Position numbers and translations under genes: made by a program. From positions 62,001-126,000 of the forward strand of contig NZ_JARUXE010000003.1 of assembly GCF_030433895.1 (NCBI RefSeq): 64,000 nucleotides of DNA. The letters are read 5' to 3'. Source of the stretch: Arthrobacter sp. PsM3 (GTDB taxonomy: Bacteria; Actinomycetota; Actinomycetes; Actinomycetales; Micrococcaceae). The notes below the pieces were generated by a model. The model ran no database searches. It was not told the origin of the DNA and saw only the letters and a program-made list of their open reading frames with translations. Shown in pieces: positions 50,063-58,259 of this stretch; position 1 is the first letter of the stretch, and every line of letters starts with the position of its first letter.

Positions 50063-50875
50063 TCAGTCGACCGCAGTTGGCCGGTGCCGTCCCAGCGTCC
50101 GGAGGTACGCGCCGAAGCCGTGCGGCGCCCGCGCATGGATCCGGCCCGAGGTCAGCACGCGCATGCTGTCCGTGGCGGTCACGGTGAAAGCGCGGTTCCG
50201 GAGGCTTTGCACCAGGGTCCGGTCCTCGTGCGAGGCGAGCTTCGGGAAGCCCCCGGCGGCCAGGTAGGCCGAGGCCCTGACGCCGAAATTGGCTCCGTAG
50301 ATGTGCGGGTGGTTCTCCTCGAAGGGATGGCGTTCCAGCCAGCGCCGGAGCAGCTCCGGGTCCATCCCAGCGGGGTCCGGTTCCACCGAGCCCAGCACGG
50401 CGTCGGCTCCGGCTTCGGCGAATTCCAGCTGGCGGACGAGCCAGTTTTCCGGAACCTGCGAGTCCGCGTCCGTGTTGGCCAGCCAGGTCCGTCCGGCCCA
50501 CGGTGGCGGCGTCCAGCGTTTGCCGGGCGGCCTGCGCCGGGATGATCCGACGCCGGCGGCCTGGATTCCGGCCGCGCGGCTGGCCCCGGTGTTGCGGACG
50601 GCCACTTCAAGGGCGCTGAAGCGCCGGTCCGCCGCGACGTAGCGGGCCGTGATGCCGGCGGAACCGTCGGTGCAGCTGTCCAGCACCACGGTGACCCCGA
50701 CGTCCACGTCGGGGCGGCGCCGGTGCAGGGCATCGGCGGCACGCTGCACCGCCTTCAGGGCCCGGCCCAGGTGTTCGTCCTCATTGTGGGCCGGGATCAC
50801 GACGGAGATCCGGTCGATGCTGTGTCCGCGGGGCAGCGGCAGCGGCAGGGGCAGCGGCAGCGGCAGGGCGGCCAT
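50063..50875 (-). CDS. family 2 glycosyltransferase
   Basis: 270 residues. The GT-A core has ISVVIPAHNEDEHLGRAL, the strand VTVVLDSCTDGSAG, and the DXD-type NTDADSQVPENW, followed by the acceptor-side GANFGVRASAYLAAGGFPKLASHEDRTL with its catalytic ED. No membrane helices are present, so it acts in the cytoplasm or at the membrane face. The N-terminus is a Leu-Pro repeat (MAALPLPLPLPLPLPRG) encoded by a hexanucleotide repeat. It starts 5 nt after the stop of the PIG-L/methyltransferase gene and closes the three-gene cluster. Donor and acceptor are unknown. Confidence 0.85.
   Translation of the reverse strand: MAALPLPLPLPLPLPRGHSIDRISVVIPAHNEDEHLGRALKAVQRAADALHRRRPDVDVGVTVVLDSCTDGSAGITARYVAADRRFSALEVAVRNTGASRAAGIQAAGVGSSRRRPPGKRWTPPPWAGRTWLANTDADSQVPENWLVRQLEFAEAGADAVLGSVEPDPAGMDPELLRRWLERHPFEENHPHIYGANFGVRASAYLAAGGFPKLASHEDRTLVQSLRNRAFTVTATDSMRVLTSGRIHARAPHGFGAYLRTLGRHRPTAVD
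50826..50870. repeat. hexanucleotide repeat at the start of the GT2 gene
   Basis: About six units of GGCAGC (with GGCAGG variants) run from 50833 to 50868 and encode alternating Leu-Pro just after the initiator methionine. Unit changes would keep frame but alter the N-terminus length. Confidence 0.65.
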
Positions 50876-50880
50876 TCCGG

Positions 50881-52305
50881 TTAGCTCTCCGGGCCCGGGT
50901 CGGTGGTGGCTGCCGGCCGCGGGTCCCCGCCGGCCCCGGGCGCGATCAGGACCTCGAGGATGAAGTCGCGTTCCCGGTAGAGCCCGGCGTCTGCCCAGCC
51001 AAGCTGGCGGCGCGCGGCGGCGTGGACGGAATCGCCGTCGAGCTCCCAGCCGGAGATGGGGTGGCGCCAGTGGCACAGGGCCAGGGTGCCGCCGGGCAGG
51101 AGTGCGGCCTCGACCCGCCCGAACAGCTGAGCCAGCTCGCCGGGTGCGAGGTAGTAGCCCACCTCGGAGACCACGATCAGATCGAATCGGCCCTCCGGCC
51201 AGTCCTGCGGGACGGTGAGGTGGCGGGTCCGGGCGCCGGGCAGGTGCTCGAGGCGCCGGGCGGCGTAGGCCAGCGCGGCGCCGCTGGCATCGACGGCCAG
51301 GAAGCTGGCGCAGCGCTGCGCGAGGTCCACGCTGAGGGTCCCGATCGAACAGCCGATCTCGAGTCCCGCGTTGTAGTTCAGGCCGGGGAGGGCCGCGAGG
51401 GTGAGCGCGCGTTTGCGGTGCTCGTACCAGCTGGTGGTGTACTGCCAGGGGTCGTCGGTTCCGGTGTGGACTGCGTCGAAGACGCCTTCCGCGTCGGCGG
51501 CGGCGTAGGAATTGGTGCTGCTGGCGGCGGCCGGGCGCTGCCACGCGAAGGTCTCGAACGGCCGTTCGAAGTGCTCCAGGAAGGCCGGCGGGAGCAGCAC
51601 CTCGTCCCCCGGCTGGCCGGACAGCGCCCGGACCTGCGAGGTGTGGGAGGCCATGGCCGCAGCCTTGGCCTGCCGTTCGGCGGGATCCAGCGGCAGCCGC
51701 AGCCAGGACTGCCAGGCCGGGTCCGCGGCGTCCGCCCAGAGCCAGTACCAAATGGGGTACTCCAGCAACCCGTGGCCGCCGGCACCGGCGGCCTCGGCGG
51801 CGGCGGAGCCCAGTGCCTCGTGGTCGGTGTGGCCGTCATGCCGGTAGGGCGCCACGAGGGTGATGCGCTCCGCCGGCAGTCCCGAAGCGGCAGCTTCTGC
51901 GATGGCGCGCTGCAGCGCCGCGTGCACCTCCGCCCGGTGGTCGGCGAGCCTGCCGTCCGGCAGGGCGAGGAACCGCCAGCCCGGGTCCGGGAGCAACTGC
52001 CTGAGCGCGCCGCCGAATTCCCGGAGCCGGACGGCGGCGAGTTGTTCCGGCGTCGTACTTGGTGAGTCCGGGTGCGAGGCCTCCCCTGCCGTGCACAACA
52101 GCACCGTGATGCGGGCCCCGAGCCTCCGCAGCCGGACCATCAGCCCGCCGGCCCCGAGGGATTCGTCGTCCGGGTGTGCGGCCAGGACGATGAACGCCCG
52201 CCCGGCGAGTTCCCCGGCGTCGAGCGGCAGTTCCGGAAGGGCAGCCAGTCCGCTGGCTGCCCAGGCGTCCTCGCTGGTTCCGGCGTCCTCGTGAGTGAAG
52301 CTCAC
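50881..52305 (-). CDS. PIG-L deacetylase fused to NodS-like SAM methyltransferase
   Basis: 474 residues, two domains. The first (about 25-235) is a PIG-L/LmbE zinc deacetylase with AHPDDESLGAGGL and the distal ligand motif RHDGHTDHEALG, which removes acetyl from N-acetylglucosamine-type sugars. The second (about 285-455) is a class I methyltransferase with LEIGCSIGTLSVDLA as SAM loop, VDASGAAL and VVSEVGYYL, most like NodS-family N-methyltransferases. The start GTG 52305 overlaps the upstream stop as GTGA, so translation is coupled. Fusion of the two steps suggests deacetylation followed by methylation of the freed amine (inference). Confidence 0.87.
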   Translation of the reverse strand: MSFTHEDAGTSEDAWAASGLAALPELPLDAGELAGRAFIVLAAHPDDESLGAGGLMVRLRRLGARITVLLCTAGEASHPDSPSTTPEQLAAVRLREFGGALRQLLPDPGWRFLALPDGRLADHRAEVHAALQRAIAEAAASGLPAERITLVAPYRHDGHTDHEALGSAAAEAAGAGGHGLLEYPIWYWLWADAADPAWQSWLRLPLDPAERQAKAAAMASHTSQVRALSGQPGDEVLLPPAFLEHFERPFETFAWQRPAAASSTNSYAAADAEGVFDAVHTGTDDPWQYTTSWYEHRKRALTLAALPGLNYNAGLEIGCSIGTLSVDLAQRCASFLAVDASGAALAYAARRLEHLPGARTRHLTVPQDWPEGRFDLIVVSEVGYYLAPGELAQLFGRVEAALLPGGTLALCHWRHPISGWELDGDSVHAAARRQLGWADAGLYRERDFILEVLIAPGAGGDPRPAATTDPGPES

Positions 52306-53408
52306 CACGGGTGGTCCCCCTTGAGTGTGAGGGCACCGAGCTGGGCGTCGTCGCGCATGCCGTGGTGCTGGCGGATGTAGAGGGAGAGGTCGGCCATGCG
52401 TTTTCCGTAGACGGGGTCGAAGGCGAGCGGGCCGGGGCCGAGGTTGCGGCTGACCAGCGTCTGGATGCGTTCGACGGCGGTGGCGATGTTGCCGCGGACC
52501 CGGAGGGCCTCGCTCCAGGCCCCGGTGCCGGAGAGTTCCCCGGCATCGATCCGCGCGGCGGACCGGGCGAGGTATCCGGTCAGGGCAGTCAGTGTGCGGT
52601 CGATCTCGCCAAGGTGGGCCAGCGCCAGCTGGTCCGGTTCGCGGCCGCCGCCGGCCGCCTTGAGCAGGGAATCCGTGAAGCCGCGGGCCACCGCGACGGC
52701 GCCGCCCAGCCAGCAGGCCGCCACGCCCATGCCGCCCCAGGCGAAGCCGGGCCGGCGGTAGTACCAGCCGGAGTCGCCCAGCGGCACGGCCGGAACGGCG
52801 TCGAAGTGCACGGTGCCGCTGGGGATTTCCGTGAGTCCCCGGCTGGTCCACTGCGGATCCTCGAAGCTGACGCCATGGGCATGGAGGTCGACGGCGAAGG
52901 CCGCACGGCCGCCGTCGTCCAGATGGGCGGTCACGACGGCGTGGTCCAGCTGGGCGGCCAGGGAGCACCACGGTTTGGAACCGTGCAGCAGGAAACAGCC
53001 GTCCGCCGGCTTGGCCTCAAGCCGCAGGCCGGCGGCTTCGGCGGCAAACACACCCCAGGCGCCGTCGAAGTGGACGCCGTCAACGTCCGGGCAGTCCCCG
53101 CCGTTCAGGACCGCCTGCCCGGTGGCCTGGGCGAGGATTGCGGAGGCGTCCAAGTGGGGTTCGATGGCCCGGCCCGCGGCGACGTCAATGGCCGTGACGG
53201 ACGCCAGGATTTCCCACAGGAACGCGGTCCGGCCCTCGCCGGGATTCGGGGCTGCTGCTGCGGCGGTTTTGGCCAGCTCCAGCAGTGCCGGGACGTCGCC
53301 GACGGCCGACGCGGCCGCCGCGAGCAGGGGGCTGAGCCCGGCCAGGCGATCCGGTGCGGAGCTGATCCGCACGGCGAGGGGCCGCTGGGAATCGGGGGTC
53401 CGGTTCAT
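52302..53408 (-). CDS. acyl-CoA-dehydrogenase-like flavoprotein
   Basis: 368 residues with the acyl-CoA dehydrogenase fold. The middle beta-domain region contains GSKPWCSLAAQLDHAVVTA and GLTEIPSGTVHFDAVPAVPLG, and the C-terminal helices begin FAWGGMGVAACWLGGAVAVARG. The usual C-terminal Glu/Arg region of true dehydrogenases (YGG-type segment and RDAR) is not seen; the end reads YIRQHHGMRDDAQLG. It may thus be an oxidase, hydroxylase or non-catalytic relative. It is the first gene of the cluster with the PIG-L/methyltransferase and GT2 genes, coupled by a 4-nt overlap. Confidence 0.8.
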   Translation of the reverse strand: MNRTPDSQRPLAVRISSAPDRLAGLSPLLAAAASAVGDVPALLELAKTAAAAAPNPGEGRTAFLWEILASVTAIDVAAGRAIEPHLDASAILAQATGQAVLNGGDCPDVDGVHFDGAWGVFAAEAAGLRLEAKPADGCFLLHGSKPWCSLAAQLDHAVVTAHLDDGGRAAFAVDLHAHGVSFEDPQWTSRGLTEIPSGTVHFDAVPAVPLGDSGWYYRRPGFAWGGMGVAACWLGGAVAVARGFTDSLLKAAGGGREPDQLALAHLGEIDRTLTALTGYLARSAARIDAGELSGTGAWSEALRVRGNIATAVERIQTLVSRNLGPGPLAFDPVYGKRMADLSLYIRQHHGMRDDAQLGALTLKGDHPW

Positions 53409-53495: not shown

Positions 53496-53516
53496 CTCCA
53501 TAAATCTAAGCACACT
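53496..53516 (-). promoter_or_regulatory. CTAAG-CACA-CTTAG dyad and possible promoter of the glycoconjugate cluster
   Basis: A perfect 5-bp inverted repeat spaced by 4 nt lies near 53505-53518 in an AT-rich patch about 100 nt before the first gene. On the minus strand the sequence reads GTGCTTAGATTTATGG, which contains a TAGATT-like -10. Candidate only; boundaries are approximate. Confidence 0.35.
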
Positions 53517-53573
53517 TAGCACTTTCGGGATTCCGCTCGTAGCTCCCGTGCCGGCGCGATGGCCGCCGCGCGG

Positions 53574-54251
53574 CTACACCACCCGCGCCAGGGCGAAGCC
53601 GTCCCAGCCTTTGGAGCCCACGGTCTGGATCACGGTGCCGTCCAGCCGGGGGTCCCCGCCCAGCATCTTCACAGCGCTGATGATGCCCGGGGCGTTGACG
53701 GCGTCCAGGGCGGGGTCCAGCACCGCGCCCTCCCAGACCACGTTGTCCATCACGACGGCGGTGCCCGGCCTGCCGAGGCGGATGGCCCAGTCGAGGTAGT
53801 GCGGGTTGTTTTCCTTGTCCGCGTCGATGAACACGAAATCGAAGGGCTCGGCACCCTCGTCGGCGAGCGCCTGCAGGGTATCGAGTGCCGCCCCGACCCG
53901 GATCTCCACGAGGTGGCCCAAACCGGCGAAGTCGACGTTGGCGCGGGCCACGGCGGCGTGTTTGGAGAGGTATTCGCACGTGATCAGCCGGCCGCCGTCG
54001 GGCAGCCCCTGGGCCATCCAGATGGTGCTGAACCCAGCTAGCGTCCCGATTTCCAGCACGCGGCGGGCACCCGCGAGCTGGACGAGGAGTTTGAGCAGTT
54101 TGCCGGCTGTGGGGGCGACTTCGATAGGCGGCATGCCCGCCTCGCGGGCGGTGCTGACGGCGCGTTTCAGGGTGCTGTCAGGGCGGACCACAACCTCGGA
54201 CAGGAATTCCTCGACGGCGGTCCAGCGGGCGGTGGGCTGATGCTCGAACAT
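53574..54251 (-). CDS. SAM-dependent O-methyltransferase (class I, family 3)
   Basis: 225 residues of the cation-dependent catechol/caffeoyl-CoA type. The SAM site is VLEIGTLAGFSTIWMAQGLP, with the acidic loop ITCEYLSKHAAVARANVDFAG and the metal-binding FDFVFIDADKENN plus DNVVWEGAV. All ligands (Asp, Asp, Asn) are present, so it should be active on a vicinal diol or phenol. It lies 166 nt upstream-side of the glycoconjugate cluster, on the same strand but after it in orientation; whether it belongs to that pathway is unclear. Confidence 0.9.
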   Translation of the reverse strand: MFEHQPTARWTAVEEFLSEVVVRPDSTLKRAVSTAREAGMPPIEVAPTAGKLLKLLVQLAGARRVLEIGTLAGFSTIWMAQGLPDGGRLITCEYLSKHAAVARANVDFAGLGHLVEIRVGAALDTLQALADEGAEPFDFVFIDADKENNPHYLDWAIRLGRPGTAVVMDNVVWEGAVLDPALDAVNAPGIISAVKMLGGDPRLDGTVIQTVGSKGWDGFALARVV

Positions 54252-54848: not shown

Positions 54849-55481
54849 ATGAACCGGGTAGCAGACCGCAGGCCGCTCCGCGCCGATGCCGCGCGGAACG
54901 TGGACAAAATCATCACGGCCGCCCGCCAGTGCTTCCGGGAGCATGGCCCCGAGGTCCCGCTGCAGACCATCGCCGTGACCGCCGGAGTGGGACCGGCCAC
55001 ACTGTTCAGAAACTTCGCTGACAAGGAAGAACTGGTCCTCGCGGCACTGCACCGGCAGCTCGGGCTGATCGTCGATCCGGTCATTGAGGAGGCCCTCGCC
55101 GGACCGGACGCCGCCGATGGCCTGTTCCGTGTCATTGATGCGCTCATGGGCGTGGCCAGCGAGGAAGCCAACCTCTTGGGAGCCGTCGCCGGCCGGCGCG
55201 GGCTGCTGACCGGGATCACGGGGGACCTGATCGAATCCGTGGCTGTGCTCCTGGGCCGCGGTCAGGGCCAGGGCACCCTGCGCAGCGACATTTCGATGAC
55301 GGACCTGATCCGTTTGCTGGCCATGCTGATCGGCGTCGTGGACACGATGGAGGCAGGCTCGGATGCCTGGCGCCGACCGGTCGCCCTCGTCGAGGACGCC
55401 ATTCGCACGGAGCGCCCGCAACGGCCGCTGCCGCCCCAGGCGCCGCTGCCTGGCACCGCGTTCGACGCTGTGCTCGGCTAG
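54849..55481 (+). CDS. TetR family transcriptional regulator
   Basis: 210 residues. The N-terminal domain (RNVDKIITAARQCFREHGPEVPLQTIAVTAGVGPATLFRNFADKEELVLAAL) is a complete TetR helix-turn-helix. The C-terminal domain contains the SetR/TetR_C-like DAADGLFRVIDALMG region. A perfect dyad lies 29 nt upstream. The YkvA-like membrane gene follows after 38 nt on the same strand and is a probable co-transcribed target. Confidence 0.9.
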   Translation: MNRVADRRPLRADAARNVDKIITAARQCFREHGPEVPLQTIAVTAGVGPATLFRNFADKEELVLAALHRQLGLIVDPVIEEALAGPDAADGLFRVIDALMGVASEEANLLGAVAGRRGLLTGITGDLIESVAVLLGRGQGQGTLRSDISMTDLIRLLAMLIGVVDTMEAGSDAWRRPVALVEDAIRTERPQRPLPPQAPLPGTAFDAVLG

Positions 55482-56904: not shown

Positions 56905-57474
56905 ATGTCGCGTACCGCGATCCTCACCGATGCCCAATGGGAGCGGATTGAATCGTTGATGCCCAGTTCCGACGGGAGCCGCGGGAGACCGTTCCAAACC
57001 ACCGTCCGATCGTCAAGGGCATTATCTACCGTTTCCGGGCGGGAATTCCTTGACGCGACCTGGCGGAGACCTTCGGCACGTCGCAGACAGTCGGGAAACC
57101 CCACCGCCGCTTCCACACGGGGTGGACCTGTCGAATTACGTGAATCTGTTGGAGGAACCGCTCGACCACGGGATCGGGAGGTCCCGCGGCTGGCTGACAA
57201 CGAAGATTCATCGCCTCTGTGCCGGCAAGATGCGCCCGCGGGTCAAGTTGCTTGGTCCCGGGCAGGGCGGGGACTCCCCGATATTCCCGCACCTACTGGA
57301 CTCCGCAGCGTTTCCCGACCGGGTCTGGTCAGGGCACGTTCCGCCCGGAGCGGGACTCGGCGGACAAGGATTACTCCTCGAAAGCCAAAGGGTCTTCTGC
57401 ACCGGCGCGGCATCCAGGCAGTGATCCCGGAGCGCTCCGACCAGGAAGCGAACCGCAAACGCCACCTAGCCTCC
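56905..57474 (+). pseudogene. decayed IS5-family (IS427-like) transposase
   Basis: Recognisable pieces of one transposase appear in several frames. MSRTAILTDAQWERIESLMP plus SSDGSRGRPF is the N-terminus (56905 on). KGIIYRFRAGIP-type sequence can be read from about 57012. LDHGIGRSRGWLTTKIHRL and GGDSPIFPHLL come from about 57153-57300, and ADKDYSS with RRGIQAVIPERSDQEANRKRH from about 57360-57465. Several frameshifts and a central deletion are present, and the DDE catalytic end is missing where the polysaccharide deacetylase gene begins. The element cannot move. The upstream GAGTCTCCCAATTGGTTC may be part of the old end. Confidence 0.75.
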
Positions 57475-58209
57475 GGCGGGCGCGACCACGACGGCCGGGG
57501 AGCCTTGGTTGATCGGGTTGGCCTTGGCGGATGGAGCGACCACCCCGAACTCGAAGCCCTTGGCCCGCAGTGCGTCGATGGTGGAGGCCAAGTACGTCCA
57601 CTGCGTTGAGCGGCAGGAAAGGACGTCCTCAGCGTCGTGGAGCAGGATGATGGCGCCGGGCACCGCCTCCGCCATTACATACTTCTTGACGCCGGCCGCA
57701 CCGGGGCACTCGAAGTCGCCGGGGTTACCGACGTTCCAGTGCCAGAGAACCCCGCCGCTCATACCGATGGTCTTGAGGTAGCCCGACGAGTAAGAGGTGC
57801 TGTTGCCGAACGGGAAGCGCATGATCTTGGGCGCCTCACCGGTGATGGCCTTGATGGCGTCGTTGGTGCGGTCGATCTGCTGCTTTTGCTGCGCCTTGCT
57901 GATGTCGGGGAAGTTGGCGTGATCCCACGAGTGGTTGCCGATCACGTGCCCCTCAGCCTTGATCCGGCGGACGAGGTCGGGGTACTGCTGGGCGTGGGAG
58001 CCCTCGAGGAAGAACGTCGCCTTGACGCCCTTCTGCTTGAGGACGTCGAGGACGAACGCGGTGCGCTGGGGCGAGGGCCCGTCGTCAAAAGTCAGGCCGA
58101 TCAGCGGTTTGTCGGCGGCTTGGGCTGCCACGGTGGGGCCGCCGGCCAGCAGGGCCAGGACCAAGCTCGCGGCGGCCAGGGCCGTCACGGCAATCTTCCT
58201 CTTCTTCAT
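57466..58209 (-). CDS. secreted polysaccharide deacetylase (CE4)
   Basis: 247 residues: a signal peptide ending near AAQAADKP, then a full NodB domain. Motif 1 is TFDDGP (Asp42, Asp43), motif 2 HSWDH (His93, His97), motif 3 RFPFGNS and the late motif LLHDAED, so all metal and catalytic residues are present. Probable substrates are peptidoglycan or chitin oligomers. GGAAGG lies 9 nt before ATG 58209, which is preferred over TTG 58218. Its end abuts an IS remnant, and a promoter-like pair is visible upstream. A second CE4 gene at 35305 has an altered motif. Confidence 0.9.
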   Translation of the reverse strand: MKKRKIAVTALAAASLVLALLAGGPTVAAQAADKPLIGLTFDDGPSPQRTAFVLDVLKQKGVKATFFLEGSHAQQYPDLVRRIKAEGHVIGNHSWDHANFPDISKAQQKQQIDRTNDAIKAITGEAPKIMRFPFGNSTSYSSGYLKTIGMSGGVLWHWNVGNPGDFECPGAAGVKKYVMAEAVPGAIILLHDAEDVLSCRSTQWTYLASTIDALRAKGFEFGVVAPSAKANPINQGSPAVVVAPAGG

Positions 58210-58259
58210 GGTGCTCAACCTTCCGTTCTCAAGGTGGTCTTCACCCTTGCTAGAGGTGC

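Follow-up and report, generated by a model that had tools for sequence, protein, structure and literature searches.

A conserved four-function gene cassette in Arthrobacter sp. PsM3 and its likeness to Nod-factor genes

The Nod-factor genes nodB, nodC and nodS together encode an amino-sugar de-N-acetylase, a GT2 glycosyltransferase and a NodS-family methyltransferase. A three-gene operon with a likewise composed set of enzymes, accompanied by a flavoprotein of the acyl-CoA dehydrogenase (ACAD) fold, lies in a 64,000-nucleotide stretch of the Arthrobacter sp. PsM3 genome (contig NZ_JARUXE010000003.1, positions 62,001 to 126,000, numbered here from the first letter of the stretch and hereafter termed the window), in an assembly of 4.69 Mb and 197 contigs. 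Other described enzymes resemble single parts of this operon. The nitrososynthases (3MXL, KijD3, DnmZ), whose substrates are amino sugars, and the DszC/SfnB monooxygenases have the same ACAD fold as the flavoprotein. The LmbE/PIG-L deacetylases, according to PMC4101496, are characterized by a zinc site with a His-Asp-His ligand pattern and an aspartate acting as general base.

Domains of the operon

The three genes are tightly packed on the minus strand in the order flavoprotein, PIG-L/NodS-like fusion, GT2. Their sequences mark them as the version, in Micrococcales, of a cassette with four functions, comprising an ACAD-fold flavoprotein, a de-N-acetylase, a NodS-like methyltransferase and a GT2 glycosyltransferase, with the following features.

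52302-53408, minus strand: flavoprotein of the ACAD fold, 368 amino acids, opening the operon (translation, fold and active-site columns)
52302-52305, minus strand: 4-nt overlap (GTGA) between the flavoprotein stop and the fusion start (translations)
50881-52305, minus strand: PIG-L de-N-acetylase fused to a NodS-like S-adenosylmethionine (SAM) methyltransferase, 474 amino acids, GTG start
51790-52188, minus strand: PIG-L domain, residues 40-172 (Pfam and motifs)
51055-51459, minus strand: NodS-like methyltransferase domain, about residues 283-417 (Pfam; DPW at residue 285, SAM-binding motif GCSIG at residue 318)
50876-50880, minus strand: 5-nt gap from the fusion stop to the GT2 start (translations)
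50063-50875, minus strand: GT-A fold GT2 glycosyltransferase, 270 amino acids (TDADS at residue 135, HEDR at residue 216)

The original prediction, made from the letters of the window, had described three genes coupled by a 4-nt overlap and a 5-nt gap, and translation confirmed this layout. Its domain calls (PIG-L, NodS-like, GT2 and ACAD-like) were all recovered with Pfam, the ACAD fold itself in an AlphaFold model, and its assignment of the DNA to an actinobacterium fits the closest named relatives, which are Arthrobacter.

The PIG-L half of the fusion protein belongs to the PIG-L superfamily by both profile and motif, with a Pfam match at 5e-23 (82 bits, cut-off 28.2) and the sequences HPDDE at residue 44 and HTDH at residue 159. 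Read against the ligand pattern given in PMC4101496, these motifs predict a metal site formed by His44, Asp47 and His162 with Asp46 as the base, the pattern shared by MshB, BshB, BtrD and TkDAC. Unlike MshB, BshB and Mca, the PsM3 domain is joined to a methyltransferase and scores below the cut-offs for all three enzymes. The C-terminal half of the fusion matches Methyltransf_12 (5e-11) and the NodS fold family PF05401 (3e-10, 40.6 bits against a cut-off of 24), and thus belongs to the latter. It differs from nodulation NodS proper (NCBIfam NF041650), reaching 52 bits where 300 are required and true NodS scores 341. The nearest solved structure to this domain is PDB 4ISC (3e-38), presumably from Pseudomonas syringae, which carries the bare annotation "Methyltransferase" and is probably a member of the cassette methyltransferase family.

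The glycosyltransferase has the GT-A fold and DxD motif (TDADS) of GT2 enzymes and matches Pfam Glycos_transf_2 at 2e-11 (44.7 bits); its fold matches are assorted GT-A enzymes, none of which points to a donor. The original prediction had likened it to NodC, an equivalence that found no support. The cassette enzyme is short and, by eye, has no membrane segment, unlike the chitin-oligomer synthase NodC, and a search of the PsM3 genome for NodC speaks against the assignment, its best match lying at other loci with 43.5 bits against an NCBIfam cut-off of 550. NodA gave no match in the PsM3 genome and was silent in 14 control genomes, while both nod genomes searched (G402, G192) scored above its cut-off; in a control nod operon, NodB (320 bits), NodC (756) and NodS (341) all exceeded theirs. 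With NodA, NodC and NodS profiles all failing in PsM3, and with an ACAD-fold flavoprotein that Nod-factor clusters lack, the cassette belongs, on these profile comparisons, outside the Nod-factor genes.

Conservation of the cassette and exchange of its deacetylase

Among 149 genomes of the family Micrococcaceae, homologues of the fusion protein were found in 72, of the flavoprotein in 73 and of the GT2 in 74, and all 72 genomes with the fusion hold all three genes. The exceptions were one genome with the flavoprotein only (G009) and two with the GT2 only (G102, G119), of which G102, once opened, proved to hold a full yet divergent and rearranged set. In G009 (L240, G009:C15:150000-162000) we observed a decayed cassette consisting of a flavoprotein followed by PIG-L and GT2 fragments. 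A scan of named genomes returned at least 587 relatives of the fusion, and the best 80 were examined. In 78 of these 80 the flavoprotein lies immediately upstream, the two misses (L051, L103) being contig ends; the GT2 lies immediately downstream in 78, one of the others (L113) having it on the other side and one (L122) having none that was found. The fusion reads open in a single frame in at least 70 of the 80. Since neighbours are kept in 78 of 80 relatives on each side, the three-gene arrangement is conserved and not due to chance, and the co-occurrence in 72 of 72 genomes speaks against the concern, raised with the original prediction, that the trio might rarely be found together.

The set reaches well outside the Micrococcales. 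A plasmid search (71 records at 1e-10) recovered sets, not always complete, in which the deacetylase and methyltransferase are separate genes where annotated. Their hosts include the Pseudomonadota Bradyrhizobium, Pandoraea, Sulfitobacter, Komagataeibacter, Limimaricola, Roseomonas, Sphingomonas, Novosphingobium, Comamonas and Acinetobacter, as well as Kitasatospora, Deinococcus and Nostoc. No GT2 is annotated in the Roseomonas and Kitasatospora plasmid sets, while the D. radiodurans set has a helicase gene separating PIG-L from the methyltransferase and yielded no GT2. In a sample of Pseudomonadota, the methyltransferase profile exceeded 130 bits at 22 places in 21 of 299 genomes (among them the centre genome of the sample, which had been picked for having the cassette), with the flavoprotein at 21 of these places, PIG-L at 18 and GT2 at 16. 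Forty control stretches of 16.5 kb, hand-picked from 13 of the same genomes, contained none of the cassette components at 1e-10. In the Actinomycetota sample the profile matched in 26 of 246 genomes, PsM3 included, and the 26 places besides PsM3 hold the flavoprotein in 25 cases, GT2 in 23, PIG-L in nine and a CE4 polysaccharide deacetylase in 15; two have neither deacetylase, L231 and L226, the latter at a contig end. No paper on the cassette was found by titles and abstract openings in the open full-text PMC literature, subscription journals and preprints lying outside the scope of that search.

The two deacetylases were never seen side by side, as none of the 48 opened regions (22 from Pseudomonadota and 26 from Actinomycetota) holds PIG-L and CE4 together. 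The CE4 form characterizes a Rubrobacter-type clade, including Rubrobacter indicoceani, in which the CE4 gene lies ahead of the flavoprotein and the stretches opened yielded no PIG-L gene. The commonest order in this clade, seen at 12 places, is CE4, flavoprotein, methyltransferase, GT2; Rubrobacter has, in addition, a ferredoxin-NAD-reductase-like gene separating the methyltransferase from the GT2, and most of its kin have a gap of similar size at this point. The motifs TFDDG, HxxxH, RxPW and HD are intact in all CE4 rows read in frame (L173, L174, L176 and L183, translated in the wrong frame, do not count here). The one Rubrobacter copy scanned against NCBIfam has NodB as its top model (113 bits, under the cut-off of 240) and shows no signal peptide by eye; with a CE4 deacetylase, NodB-like in Rubrobacter, the cassettes of this clade come nearer to the nod genes. 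In a methyltransferase tree of 88 rows (two duplicates and one fragment having been dropped), the CE4-associated enzymes form a single clade with support 97/91, and because of this the replacement of PIG-L by CE4 was probably one event. The presence of unrelated deacetylase folds in the same slot of the cassette is good evidence for a real de-N-acetylation step. In the other row sets two loci with stops were omitted, and of 57 distinct GT2 rows 48 entered the GT2 set (A6).

A further group of related methyltransferases, scoring about 100 bits, lies in large frames at eight places, four of which were opened. Three of these (L233, L234, L238) encode a single protein of about 1000-1200 amino acids that unites a GT2, a NodS-like and a CE4 domain, and the fourth (L236) carries only the latter two in its frame. 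Such proteins are named trifunctional glycosyltransferase / SAM methyltransferase / polysaccharide deacetylase by NCBI, so this architecture is already recognised in annotation. They combine in one protein the same three kinds of domain as the cassette and have a related methyltransferase domain, but differ from the PsM3 operon in having CE4 in place of PIG-L and in the flavoprotein, which was not found in the stretches read. True NodS clusters with the trifunctional proteins in the tree (98/95), in a placement that involves two near-identical NodS rows on a long branch and an arbitrary root. These comparisons support the view that a GT2, a de-N-acetylase and a NodS-type methyltransferase constitute a working mode shared with Nod-factor synthesis. 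Of the Nod-like product that the original prediction had proposed, the deacetylated and then N-methylated core is thus strengthened by the CE4 exchange and by the GT2-NodS-CE4 fusions, and the acyl part is left without support.

The flavoprotein and the genomic surroundings

The flavoprotein matches Pfam in the ACAD middle domain only (2e-8, barely above cut-off), and its AlphaFold model shows a complete ACAD fold (mean pLDDT 92.8). A Foldseek search with this model placed nitrososynthase and KijD3 at ranks 2-4. SfnB was matched by seven of eight flavoproteins, more than any other NCBIfam family and always below cut-off; the curated DszC/SfnB cut-off was not reached (P0002, 23.9 against 430.9 bits), nor was any other curated nitrososynthase, DszC or SfnB cut-off that was met with, and the fold search does not separate these monooxygenases from true dehydrogenases. 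A Cys-Ser-Gly-Ala stretch present in many of the flavoproteins is common to DszC in the alignment, and His85, Lys145, Ser149, Asp340 and Gln347 are conserved. Two Deinococcus flavoproteins (L124:1172-3511 and L132:3886-6249) were seen to have about 400 extra N-terminal residues, a part without Pfam match in L124.

Active-site columns were read from an alignment of 82 rows, 79 of them lettered, in which two loci are doubled (L125 = L180, L122 = L147); the register of the base columns was taken from the HMMER alignment, and L097, with masked letters, was left out of the structure alignment. At the column that we take to be the position of the catalytic acid in short-chain acyl-CoA dehydrogenases, the family is variable (D 37, G 9, E 8, A 7, N 6, P 5, S 4, T 3 in the 79 lettered rows), and the flavoproteins of the CE4 clade have Ala, Gly or Ser in 15 of 15 lettered rows (one locus doubled). 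The idea that the flavoprotein lacks a dehydrogenase base was considered, and its odds were lowered by the Asp that the CE4-clade rows carry at an alternative column, presumably that of the isovaleryl-CoA dehydrogenase base. With low to modest confidence, we suggest from these comparisons that the protein is less likely a fatty acyl-CoA dehydrogenase than a flavin-dependent oxidase or monooxygenase like DszC, SfnB or the nitrososynthases, perhaps acting on the nitrogen of an amino sugar. The role given to it in the original prediction, as a source of an acyl group, fared poorly, with no NodA in the genome and no acyltransferase in the conserved set.

Several cassettes lie close to stress genes. 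In Comamonas the cassette sits inside a trehalose operon, in the order otsA, flavoprotein, PIG-L, methyltransferase, GT2, otsB; at L158 and L163 it follows otsB and otsA, which share its strand, and Ku/ligD, catalase or rpoH genes lie near other copies. Stress genes, drawn up as a query list from the plasmid loci and mostly proteobacterial, are found near seven of the 22 Pseudomonadota places and in one of the 40 control stretches, a pooled comparison with one-sided p 0.002; the individual families are weak (p 0.04 to 1), and only the pooled count stands out. The product is therefore possibly linked to desiccation, osmotic or oxidative stress, on statistical grounds and in the Pseudomonadota only.

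Upstream of the PsM3 operon the alignment reveals a perfect palindrome, possibly an operator bound by a regulator encoded nearby; a candidate for the latter is the divergent TetR gene at 54849-55481.

53506-53519, minus strand: perfect 5-4-5 palindrome ahead of the flavoprotein gene, putative operator (alignment)

The palindrome is kept in 12 of 14 aligned close upstream regions, PsM3 included, and a search allowing 3 mismatches finds a single copy of the surrounding 21-base site in the PsM3 genome; a scan for promoters gave no hit. Among the loci of the best 80 relatives, a TetR gene is present in 39, a small protein in 39 and an O-methyltransferase in 37, and these wider neighbours in Arthrobacter look like no more than local synteny. 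In the window, the O-methyltransferase (53574-54251, minus strand, Pfam 2e-41) lies just upstream of the operon on the same strand. About 4 kb from the operon is a separate CE4 deacetylase (57466-58218, minus strand, Pfam 1e-38) with a signal peptide by eye, which is matched near the cassette in two of the best 80 relatives at about 30% identity, and what appears by eye to be an IS5-type transposase remnant extends across more than one frame at 56905-57609.

A proposed pathway and its alternatives

We tentatively read the cassette as a conserved cytosolic pathway to a small glycoside or glycoconjugate of an N-methylated amino sugar, oxidised by the flavoprotein and linked to stress at least in the Pseudomonadota, a reading that is plausible and a little short of probable. 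The GT2 would add or extend an N-acetylated amino sugar, and the PIG-L domain, or the NodB-like CE4 enzyme in one clade, would take off its N-acetyl group. From the company that the NodS-like domain keeps with de-N-acetylases of two unrelated families, we infer that it would methylate the freed amine with SAM, and in the fusion protein the amine could be passed from the deacetylase site to the methyltransferase site. The flavoprotein would oxidise the sugar or its (methyl)amine, leaving a product that is perhaps N-oxidised, and production would take place under desiccation, osmotic or oxidative stress, at least in the Pseudomonadota.

A number of observations weigh against this reading. The N-acetyl substrates of PIG-L and CE4 enzymes are diverse, and methylation by NodS-like folds extends to other amines, with phosphoethanolamine methyltransferases among the matches. 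Six of the 22 Pseudomonadota places have no nearby GT2 and four no nearby deacetylase. None of the listed stress genes was found near 18 Actinomycetota places (eight further ones yielded a glgE at L227, with 481 bits, and a weak ligD match at L231), and none lies beside the PsM3 operon by the Pfam matches of its neighbours, so that a stress role in this strain would be an extrapolation. The flavoprotein may still follow ordinary dehydrogenase chemistry. VIA Z scores of 30-32 are tied between ACADs and monooxygenases, with isovaleryl-CoA dehydrogenase at 32. An acid occupies the usual base column in 45 of the 79 rows, including Asp331 of PsM3, and in 17 of 18 lettered Micrococcales rows, PsM3 among them; the 15 CE4-clade rows without an acid there all have Asp at the isovaleryl-CoA dehydrogenase column. 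Taking the two columns together, 60 of 79 rows are acidic in at least one and 19 in none.

The flavoprotein data bear directly on the view that it is a true dehydrogenase of acyl-CoA or acyl-ACP and that the product, an N-methyl amino sugar bearing a lipid as an N-acyl group, is nearer to a Nod factor. The full ACAD fold of the model, the Z score of 32 to isovaleryl-CoA dehydrogenase and the acid in 60 of 79 rows, Asp331 included, agree with such an enzyme, but 19 rows have an acid at neither column (even though they come from the same cassette), SfnB is the NCBIfam family matched most, and there is neither an acyltransferase in the conserved set nor NodA in the PsM3 genome; we consider it rather unlikely. 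Likewise unlikely is a role in modifying a polymer or a lipid carrier, be it exopolysaccharide, wall or lipid-linked sugar, with the GT2 as a decorating enzyme, in place of the synthesis of a free small molecule. Additional GT4, GT2 or UDP-galactopyranose mutase genes do accompany some copies, yet GT4 is near only three of the 22 Pseudomonadota and none of the 18 Actinomycetota places, the conserved set has no membrane synthase, flippase or polymerase, and by eye the GT2 lacks a membrane segment and the Rubrobacter CE4 a signal segment.

A tie to trehalose, in which the cassette would turn trehalose or a related compatible solute into an amino or N-methyl derivative, is suggested by the otsA and otsB genes that flank the Comamonas cassette, by the otsB and otsA that precede it at L158 and L163 and by an otsA close by in Acinetobacter. 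It appears improbable, however, as otsA is in reach of three of the 22 Pseudomonadota and none of the 18 Actinomycetota places, and common regulation alone could explain this proximity. Action of the fusion on mycothiol precursors, which had been named beside the original prediction as an outcome that would undo it, is very improbable. Its PIG-L half is weakly MshB-like, and the three other PIG-L proteins of PsM3, one of them Mca, all fall under the MshB cut-off; against this, the fusion reaches 32 bits where the NCBIfam cut-off for MshB is 224 and 17 where that for Mca is 277, it is absent from 77 of the 149 family genomes, and cassettes are present in Pseudomonadota, Deinococcus and Nostoc, which are not known to make mycothiol.

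The proposed pathway to a small N-methylated amino-sugar product would, if correct, mean that the set of GT2, de-N-acetylase and NodS-type methyltransferase is not peculiar to symbiosis and represents a general bacterial route to N-methyl amino sugars. The set, or most of it, spans at least four phyla (Actinomycetota, Pseudomonadota, Deinococcota and Cyanobacteriota), and some cassette-bearing genera are desiccation-hardy. In its most far-reaching form, which we hold to be speculative and unlikely, the cassette would be a widespread non-symbiotic Nod-type pathway to a stress metabolite whose amino sugar is N-methylated and oxidised by a flavin enzyme to a hydroxylamine, nitroso or nitrone form. 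PIG-L and NodB-like deacetylases could then stand in for each other, and rhizobial NodS would be a late recruit from this wider group of enzymes that N-methylate amino sugars. The chemistry of the ACAD-fold enzyme would be directly testable, the genes being few and, in the Micrococcales, partly fused. The cassette would then offer a candidate new class of stress metabolites and a place in which to seek the origin of the Nod-factor enzymes.

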